Shown here: piece after piece, positions 5,049-17,087 of the stretch
Layout: every line of letters starts with the position of its first letter
How positions within the stretch are numbered: the first letter of the stretch is position 1
Source of the DNA: Vicinamibacterales bacterium
Lineage (GTDB): Bacteria; Acidobacteriota; Vicinamibacteria; Vicinamibacterales; JAKQTR01
Length of the DNA stretch: 64,000 nt
Direction: 5' to 3'
Assembly (NCBI GenBank): GCA_025456345.1
Contig: JALOKU010000006.1
Location: 1 to 64,000 of the forward strand
The notes under the pieces: generated by a model
Seen by the model: the letters and a program-made list of their open reading frames with translations, nothing else
Told to the model about the DNA's origin: nothing
Databases searched by the model: none
Translations under genes and position numbers: made by a program

Positions 5049-5437
5049 GGATCGCGCGCCTCAGCCCCCGTGCCGGGACAGCACGAAGGGCGAGCAGATT
5101 GTGGCAACCGCAGGGAAGGGAGTCAACCGGCGAATCGGCCGGCGAATCGGCCTTGACTTCAACGGCGCGCGGCGCGATTATTCCACCCAGGGAAACCGCC
5201 CCCCACCGACAACCTGCCGCCGCGACGCATCGACGGAGCACGCCATCGCGCCCGTCGTGATCGTACGCCCCCATCGCGCCCCCGCGGTGATCGAGGTCGT
5301 TTCCGCCCGTCAGCTGGGAGGCAGTCGAGGATGCGCAGCCTGCGCTTCCCGCACTCGACGTTCGTGTGACACGTCGTGGGAGTCGCGGAGCTGCGTACGT
5401 TTCGAGCCGAGGTGCAGAATCCCGAAGGAGGTAGTCG

Positions 5438-7555
5438 ATGGTGCGTCTTTCACGGTTGTCACGAGCGGTCCGGCCGCCGATGCCGAGGGTCTGGGCCATC
5501 GCTTCGCTGACCCTGGTGCTGGCGGCTGGCGCGCTTCCCGCACCTGCCGCAGCCCAACCACCCGGAACGATACAGACGGTGGCGGGCACCGGCGTCTGGG
5601 GAAGCAGCGGCGACGGCGGGCCGGCCACTTCGGCACGGATCCAGGAAATCTACGGCATCGCGGTGGACAAGGACGGCAGTCTCTACTTGACGGGGCTCGC
5701 CTCGAACACCGTCCGAAAGGTGACCGCGTCGGACGGCATCATCTCGAGGGTGGCAGGGACCGGCGTTGGCTGGGGATCCACTGGCGACGGCGGGCCGGCC
5801 ACGGCGGCGAACCTGGGCGGTCCGATTCGTGTGGCAGTGGATGCGGATTACAACCTCTACATCTCGGAGTACCTCTACTACAAGATCAGGAAGGTCAGCG
5901 GGGCGTCCGGCCTCATCGGGACGGTGGTGGGAACAGGCATCCCGAACTACAACGGCGAAAACATCCCCGCGGCGACTGCCCAAATCCACGACCCGTGGGG
6001 CATCGCTGTGAGTCCGAACGGGGACTATTATTTCGCGGTGGGCAGCGGCCCACGGATTCGGAAGGTCACAGCGGCGACTGGCCTGATCTCGACCGTGGCC
6101 GGGACTGGCGTCAACGGGGATAGCGGAGACGGCGGGCCGGCGACGTCCGCGCAGTTCATGGACCCGAGGGCCGTCGCACTCGACCCGGCCGGCAACCTCT
6201 TCATTCTGGACTATCGCGCGTGCCGAGTCCGGATGGTCGACGCCGCGACGCAGATCATCACGACAGTAGCCGGGACGGGATCCTGCGGATTCAGCGGCGA
6301 CAGGGGTCCGGCGACCCTGGCGCAATTGAACTGGCCGTATGGCCTCGCGACCGATGCGGCCGGAGACATCTACATCGCCGACACCGACAACCTCCGCATC
6401 CGCCACGTGTCGGCGGCGACGGGCATCATCTCGACCATCGCGGGCGTTGGTTCGTCGGGCAGCGGTGGCGACGCCGGACCGGCCACACTGGCGCAGTTCA
6501 TCAGGCCGGTGGATGTGGCGGTGGACGCCTGGGGAAATGTGTTCGTCGCGGATGCCAGCGACAACCGCATCCGGATGATCACGCCCCGTGACCTCCCGGT
6601 GATCACGTGGGCCAACCCGTCTGCGATCAGTTCGGCCACGCCGCTCGGTGCGGCGCAGTTGAACGCGACGGCGAACGTTCCGGGCACCTTCGTGTACGAC
6701 CCGCCAGCCGGGACGGTGTTGAGCGCCGGCGCGGGGCAGCTACTGTCGGTCACATTCATTCCCGACGACCTGGGCGCTTACGCCCCGGCCCTTGCGACGG
6801 TCGCCATTGACGTCAATGTCGGCCCGGTGAACGGCCCGCCGTACAGGCTGACAATCACCCCGCCGACGGGCGGCAAGGTGCACGGCGCCGGGATCAACTG
6901 CGGCGCGGGCGGCACGGCGTGCACGGTGACGATGCCGGCGGCGATGTCGCTTGGCCTGGAGGCGACGCCGAGCGCCGGGTACACGTTCACGGCGTGGCAG
7001 CGGCACGACGCCGGCGTATTCGCTGGCGCTGAATGGCGCGCGTACCTGCAGCGCCATCTTCACGCCGGCGGGGGGCACATCGGCGTACCAGTTGACCATC
7101 GCGCCGGCGCCGACCGGCGGGGCGGTTAGCGGGCATGGCCTCGCCTGTGGCGCGGGTGGGGTGACGTGCCAGGTGGCATTCGGCAGTGCGACCACGGCCA
7201 CGCTGACCGCCACGCCGAGTTCGGGGTATGCGTTCACGAGTTGGGGCGGGGCGTGCGCGGGCACGGCTCCCACCACCACCGTCCTGGTGGACGCGGCGCG
7301 GACCTGCACGGCGACGTTCGCGGCGACGGGCGGAGGGCCGGTGACGGGCCCGCCGTACACGCTGACGGTGACACCGGCGGCGGGCGGGGTGATTCGGGCC
7401 GCGGGCATCGCCTGCGGCGCGGGCGGCACGGCGGGTACACGTTCACGGCGTGGACCGGGGACTGCAGCGGCACGACGCCGGCATACCCGCTGGCGCTGAA
7501 TGGCGCGCGTACCTGCAGCGCCATCTTCACGCCGTCAGGAGGCGGCGGGCACTAA
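5438..7555 (+). CDS. secreted NHL-repeat protein with C-terminal InlB-B-like repeats; reading frame interrupted twice
   Basis: SD GAAGGAGG then ATG at 5438; signal peptide; repeated GTIQTVAGTGVWGSSGDGGPATSA-type NHL units. Frame changes near 6997 and returns near 7433 (ORFs 5438..7129, 6951..7499, 7166..7555). Confidence 0.8.
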
Positions 7556-7583
7556 CCCCGGAGCTCACGTCGGTTGAGGCGGA

Positions 7584-7613
7584 ATTGGGGTCAGACCCGG
7601 GTCTGACCCCAAT
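7584..7613. repeat. 30-bp perfect palindrome (REP-like or bidirectional terminator)
   Basis: attggggtcagaccc/gggtctgaccccaat between convergent genes. Confidence 0.85.
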
Positions 7614-7620
7614 CCGGTTT

Positions 7621-8904
7621 CTAGACGAGCGGCGTGGTACCCGGGACCGCCACCGGGTCCACCGGGTTCGGCCCGAACGCGTACTGCTTGGGCGACAGAT
7701 CGAGCTTCGACGTATTCATCGCCCACTCCCACGAGAACGCCCGGCCGGTGTAGGCGCTCATGCGGCCCATGATCGCGCACATCGTGCTCTCCGCGATCTG
7801 GCGGCCCTCATTCAGGGGCGCGCCCTTCCTGATCGACGCGATCAGATCGATGTGCTCCTGCACGTAGGGATTGATCTCCTCCGCCTCGAACGTCCAGGGC
7901 GACTGACCGGTGATTCGCGTGGCGCTCGACGTGCTCCACGCGACACCCTTCGTGCCGACGATCCGCTCCTCGACGCGGTCGTGGCAGCCCTTCGTCTGCC
8001 GGCAGGTACTGGCCGCGCGGACGCCGTTCGGGTACTCGAACTCCACGAAGAAGTGGTCGAAGATGTTGCCGTACTCCGGCGCCGTGCGCACCTGCCGTCC
8101 GCCCATGCCCATGACCGTCTTCGGCATCGCGCCCATCGCCCAGTTCACGACGTCGATATTGTGGACGTGCTGCTCGACAATGTGGTCGCCCGAGAGCCAG
8201 CTGAAATACAGCCAGTTCCGGCACTGCCACTCGATCTCGCTCATGTTGGGCTCGCGCAGCTTCACCCACAGGTCGCCCATGTTCCAGTAGCACTGGGCGG
8301 CGACGATGTCGCCAATCTGGCCGTCCTGGATGCGCTTCATCATCTCGAGGTAGCGCTTCTGGTGCCGGCGCTGCGTGCCGGCCACCACGGCGAGTTTCTT
8401 CTGGGCGGCAAGCTCCGCCGTCGCAATCACGGAGCGCACCCCCACCGGGTCGACGGCGACCGGCTTCTCCATGAAGACGTGCTTGCCGGCCTCGATCGCC
8501 GCCTTGAAGTGAATCGGCCGGAACCCGGGCGGCGCGGCCGTGACGATGAGGTTCACCTCGGGGACCGAGAGGACACCCTTGTAGTTGTCGAAGCCCGTGA
8601 AGCGGTTGGCCGCCGGCACCTTGACGCGGCCCGCGAATTCCTTGTTCAGCCGGGCCAGGCAGCTGTCGACGCGGTCTGGCACCAGGTCGCCGAGGGCCAC
8701 GATTTCGACCGCAGGGTCGGCCTTCAGGCAGTCGATGGCAGCGCCCGTACCGCGGCCGCCGCAGCCGATGACGCCCACCTTGAAGCTGTCCGACCCCTGG
8801 GCGAACACGCCGAAACCGGCGGGCAAACTCGCCGCGATCGAAGCCGCGGCTGCCGTCTTGACGAAGTCGCGCCGGGTGACCGACGTCTCATGCTGGTTGC
8901 TCAT
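7621..8904 (-). CDS. Gfo/Idh/MocA family oxidoreductase with Tat-type signal
   Basis: MSNQHETSVTRRDFVKTAAAASIAASLPAGFGVFAQGSDSFKVGVIGCGGRGTG...; EKPVAVDP motif. Confidence 0.9.
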   Translation of the reverse strand: MSNQHETSVTRRDFVKTAAAASIAASLPAGFGVFAQGSDSFKVGVIGCGGRGTGAAIDCLKADPAVEIVALGDLVPDRVDSCLARLNKEFAGRVKVPAANRFTGFDNYKGVLSVPEVNLIVTAAPPGFRPIHFKAAIEAGKHVFMEKPVAVDPVGVRSVIATAELAAQKKLAVVAGTQRRHQKRYLEMMKRIQDGQIGDIVAAQCYWNMGDLWVKLREPNMSEIEWQCRNWLYFSWLSGDHIVEQHVHNIDVVNWAMGAMPKTVMGMGGRQVRTAPEYGNIFDHFFVEFEYPNGVRAASTCRQTKGCHDRVEERIVGTKGVAWSTSSATRITGQSPWTFEAEEINPYVQEHIDLIASIRKGAPLNEGRQIAESTMCAIMGRMSAYTGRAFSWEWAMNTSKLDLSPKQYAFGPNPVDPVAVPGTTPLV

Positions 8905-16613: not shown

Positions 16614-16736
16614 GACTGACGCGGCCGTTGCACCTCGCTCCCCGCAGTTCCTGGTGCGCAAGGCCAAGCGGAATACCTGCACTGAGCCTCCCGCTGCCCG
16701 AGTGTCCTGTCGAGTGCCTGTCAGCCTTCGCTGAAG

Positions 16737-16994
16737 TCCGCCTTCGCCACGCTTCGGGCCGACACGTTCCTCGCGTGGCTTCGGCGGGACAGCTTTCGCT
16801 GGTGCCCACGGGCTTGCCCAGCCGAAGCTCCCCGAGGTAAGCGGCAAGCCGGAGGGGAGCGAGAGCGGTCCGCCTTCGCTGTGGTCCGGATGGCGGCTCT
16901 CCTCCCACAGCTTCGGCGGGACAGCCTTCGCTGGTTCCCACGGGCTTGCCCAGCCGAAGCTCCCCGAGGAAAGCGGCAAGCCGGAGGGGAGCGA
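16737..16994. repeat. tandem direct repeat, period 132 bp, two copies, adjacent to tRNA 3' end
   Basis: gcttcggcgggacag..ttcgctgg.tcccacgggcttgcccagccgaagctccccgagg.aagcggcaagccggaggggagcga at ~16778 and ~16910; tccgccttcgc at 16737 and 16869. Confidence 0.85.
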
Positions 16995-16998
16995 AGGC

Positions 16999-17087
16999 TG
17001 GTGCCGGAGGAGGGAATCGAACCCACACGGGGGGTGAACCCCACGGGATTTTGAGTCCCGCGCGTCTGCCAGTTTCGCCACTCCGGC
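16999..17087 (-). tRNA. tRNA-Leu(CAA), CCA encoded
   Basis: GCCGGAGTGGCGAAACTGGCAGACGCGCGGGACTCAAAATCCCGTGGGG...GGGTTCGATTCCCTCCTCCGGCACCA; acceptor GCCGGAG/CTCCGGC, anticodon loop CTCAAAA. Confidence 0.93.

Follow-up and report, generated by a model that had tools for sequence, protein, structure and literature searches.

The propeller gene and its InlB-type repeats

The 64 kb window (the whole stretch of DNA that we analyzed) carries at positions 5438-7555 a gene whose product has an NHL beta-propeller and, C-terminal to it, three divergent InlB B-repeats (PF18998), arranged in the order A-B-C. Surrounding genes encode a sodium:solute symporter, a Gfo/Idh/MocA oxidoreductase, a TIM-barrel protein and an alpha-L-fucosidase. 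The protein is predicted to be secreted, based on a signal-peptide-like start that was judged by eye. Between the propeller and repeat A is an Ig-like linker, also recognized by eye. The features of the gene as assembled are as follows:

5438..7129, + strand: open frame as assembled, 563 aa, ending with 44 out-of-frame residues and the stop codon TAG at 7127-7129
6842..7073, + strand: copy A of the InlB-type repeat; compared with copy C, 11 nt are absent at 6997/6998
7021..7067, + strand: 47-nt exact direct repeat, copy within A, the longest in the window
7086..7331, + strand: InlB-type repeat copy B, complete and open in the shifted frame, profile positions 1-82
7356..7540, + strand: copy C of the InlB-type repeat; compared with copy A, 58 nt are absent at 7433/7434
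7488..7534, + strand: 47-nt exact direct repeat, copy within C, the longest in the window
7553..7555, + strand: stop codon that closes the last frame segment, presumed end of the gene, from the sequence and the reading of ORFs

The propeller consists of six NHL/teneurin-type repeats that are spaced 171-174 nt apart, are 61-72% alike and are all in frame. Several consecutive repeats score above the cut-off, and the matches to PF25021 (teneurin-type NHL; E 1.3e-31, 110.3 bits vs. a cut-off of 27.1) and to PF01436 (NHL; E 1.5e-16, 59.9 bits vs. a cut-off of 20) are both significant. In this respect the gene resembles known NHL-repeat beta-propellers and has nothing unusual.

All three copies in the tail match the PF18998 model (divergent InlB B-repeat, Flg_new_2). 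The match within the open frame 5438..7129 has an E value of 7e-4, and the frame segment at 6951-7496 scores 39.8 bits, vs. a curated cut-off of 23.6. Copy B matches with an E value of 4.4e-10 and copy A reaches the cut-off together with its neighbours in frame. Copy C alone is below the cut-off (19.6 bits) because of its gap. As in relatives, the copies are neighbours at the C-terminus of a secreted protein; unlike the intact copies of relatives, copies A and C are each broken by a gap that disrupts the frame.

Just 3' of the stop codon of the gene is a 30-nt perfect palindrome (7584-7613) with the core GGGGTCAGACCCGGGTCTGACCCC. The core or a one-base variant of it occurs in 20 places in the genome; the reversed pattern, used as a control, occurs in none. 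The palindrome looks like a REP-type interspersed palindrome. A literature search on it returned no paper.

Gaps and reading frames in copies A and C

Copies A and C belong to one repeat subtype. The first-pass annotation had described them as near-identical, which holds for their 3' halves (96.7% identity over 92 nt) and does not extend to their 5' halves (82% over 77 nt). It had also placed an 11-nt gap in A and a 58-nt gap in C, and both were found where it located them. The counterpart in copy C of the 11 nt absent from A is accggggactg (7454-7464), and the 58 nt absent from C correspond to 6920-6977 in copy A. Thus, the piece that each copy is missing is indeed present in the other. Exact A/C matches of 19-22 nt bracket each gap. 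The junctions show microhomology of only 1-2 nt and contain no N, and the edge of the 58-nt gap can be slid by ~2 nt.

Eight exact direct repeats in the window are 19 nt or longer, and A and C share four of them, among which is the longest of all (47 nt). The location of the gaps is not due to chance, as it is A and C that hold these repeats. GC content peaks over the repeats, and the tail of the gene is GC-rich (72-76%). General indel noise was considered as a source of the gaps and was rejected in view of the mostly long open frames elsewhere in the window.

The frame was followed across the tail using a profile built from complete repeat copies. The head of A matches in frame 1 (frames are 0-based), the tail of A, the whole of B and the head of C match in frame 2, and the tail of C matches in frame 1. 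The ORFs 6951..7499 and 7166..7555 reported previously both exist. The accompanying claim that the frame is broken and then restored is correct in that the frame changes at both gaps, but the restoration exists only on paper. Translation from 5438 stops at the in-frame TAG at 7127-7129, between the two breaks, and because this stop precedes the second gap, that gap cannot rescue the product. Two frame-breaking gaps sum to a multiple of 3 with a probability of 1/2 by chance, and the restoration of the frame carries no meaning. The 1.1 kb propeller part has no stop and no shift, and copy B is fully open in its own frame.

Related genes in the assembly and in other genomes

Two other genes with PF18998 tails were found in the same assembly. 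A paralogue on contig C202 has the same A-B-C tail, with a 42-nt exact repeat shared by its copies A and C. A 59-nt stretch of its copy C has no counterpart in its copy A, and the repeats of this paralogue are in a different frame from its NHL/Ig part, with the change of frame at the 59-nt gap. The position of this break within the repeat differs from that in the window gene. The third gene, on contig C198, is cut inside a repeat by the end of the contig. Thus, all three of the PF18998-tailed genes found in the assembly are damaged. The three gaps of the window gene and the C202 paralogue all lie in A or C copies, an outcome with a chance of about 1% under an even distribution of gaps along the two genes (a rough estimate).

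PF18998 is present in 30 of the 120 genomes searched, including the source genome. Adjacent repeat pairs in the other genomes share a frame in 36 of 37 cases, the exception being a pair that spans 285 N (G084:C73), and all 36 pairs in relatives that have no intervening run of N are in frame. When the fetched loci were rescanned with our own profile, frame changes between neighbouring copies were found in the window alone. The first-pass annotation had called for a comparison with orthologues; in the relatives compared, the repeat pairs are in frame and none has such a break. Repeats of the same family are therefore damaged in this assembly and intact in relatives, with the proviso that the C202 break lies upstream of the first repeat match, at a junction that was not uniformly compared in relatives.

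In the exceptional locus (L097), the run of 285 N lies inside InlB-type repeats at 316-600 and is possibly a scaffold gap or a masked stretch. Another locus (L050, G108:C60, 214-1734) is a tandem array of consecutive 258-nt InlB-type units, most of them 99-100% identical and all in frame. The array is a clear-cut example of whole units having been added recently in the InlB-type repeat family. An NHL gene that appeared to contain two internal stops (G000:C92) proved to be one intact frame of 634 codons, the end of which the alignment had overrun.

In the sister species G002, the flanking genes are adjacent, with ~140 nt between them, and the NHL-InlB gene and the palindrome (window 5051-7639) are absent. 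Thus, the gene is accessory. The comparison within the genus comprises three genomes: an orthologue at the same site is absent from G002, and G001 gives only short, weak matches. No second genome of the species was found among these three genomes or in a scan of named contigs, which may not cover the source genome and gave distant homologues only.

Explanations for the gaps

We consider that both gaps are probably errors of the draft assembly that are tied to the repeats. This reading is favored because the genome is a draft, the gaps fall in the strongest exact duplication of the window, the genes on C202 and C198 are also damaged, and the frames are intact in relatives. The assembly is in 253 contigs and 90.84% complete, and it is in near-identical repeats that the reading frame breaks. 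That the less similar NHL repeats of the gene (61-72% alike) have kept their frame also counts for an artefact. We infer that the assembly was made from short reads and that the organism itself has the missing bases. An assembler or gap-filler may have failed to separate the two copies and dropped one piece of each. In the organism, the gene would then probably be one open frame encoding a secreted NHL propeller and three InlB-type repeats, with A and C near-identical in part. An overlap of 1-2 nt with no N is atypical of a plain de Bruijn assembler, however, and would have to be explained by gap-filling or chimeric reads.

A precedent for errors in GC-rich repetitive genes comes from the corrected genome of M. 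tuberculosis Erdman, where differences between assemblies, many judged to be likely errors, cluster in the repetitive pe_pgrs genes and include frameshifts (PMC12817950). In that study, reads from several sources permitted a check, whereas the window is known from its assembly alone. The papers returned by our literature search deal with repeat misassembly and InlB repeats in general, and none concerns this NHL-InlB gene.

A true and recent pseudogenization is a less likely explanation, but one that deserves consideration. Two real short deletions would cut the product down to a propeller that lacks a complete tail, and the C202 paralogue would carry a similar deletion. This fits the sequence as assembled, and short repeats generally raise the likelihood of deletion. 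The gene is accessory, with its flanking genes adjacent in G002, so that genuine decay would be tolerated, which also weighs against an assembly error. On the other hand, the damage in the window gene and its C202 paralogue is confined to the near-identical copies, while the propeller and copy B are open, and no relative shows such a break. Deletion between copies would also be expected to take whole units, not parts of one. Hairpin-driven deletion was rejected as a mechanism: the single strands near the gaps were not predicted, with DNA parameters, to fold more strongly than dinucleotide shuffles (z from -0.05 to -0.97).

The first-pass annotation had offered two readings, an assembly artefact in the repeats, which we favor, and recombination or phase variation, which the data do not support, as the gaps lie inside units and a recombinase is absent from the ten nearby genes scanned. 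In the second of these, recombination between A and C would toggle the surface protein between a form with the tail and one that lacks it. The near-identical 3' halves of the two copies point to past gene conversion or duplication, and each copy retains the piece that the other lacks. A crossover, however, changes whole units in frame, as in the G108:C60 array, and gene conversion copies sequence but does not delete it. We found neither a whole-unit change nor an inverted segment with a recombinase. Slippage would require a homopolymer or short tract at the break, and direct reading revealed no homopolymer or simple-sequence tract at 6990-7005 or 7425-7440. As a single assembly shows only one state, and given the points above, a switch of this kind appears very improbable.

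There is similarly little chance that the repeat tails are true hot spots of deletion in this lineage, with two paralogues having independently lost ~58-59 nt within a near-identical repeat and tailed and tail-less propellers coexisting in the population. If the gaps were true in both paralogues, they would indicate that a deletion process specific to the repeats acts on a family of secreted proteins in the lineage. Programmed ribosomal frameshifting at both places, which would join the frames and would agree with the continued coding potential in the shifted frame (copy B), can be practically dismissed, as the change of frame stems from the loss of codons within the conserved cores of the repeats, inspection by eye of 6990-7005 showed no slippery heptamer, folding near the gaps is ordinary, and the C202 paralogue breaks elsewhere in the repeat.

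The main lesson is one of caution: where a draft genome shows frame breaks in a near-identical, GC-rich repeat tail, they should not be taken for pseudogenes or switches unless the reads have been inspected.

Elsewhere in the window, two 127-nt direct repeats that are 84% identical and 132 nt apart (16736-16994) lie directly downstream of a tRNA-Leu(caa) gene on the minus strand (16999-17087).
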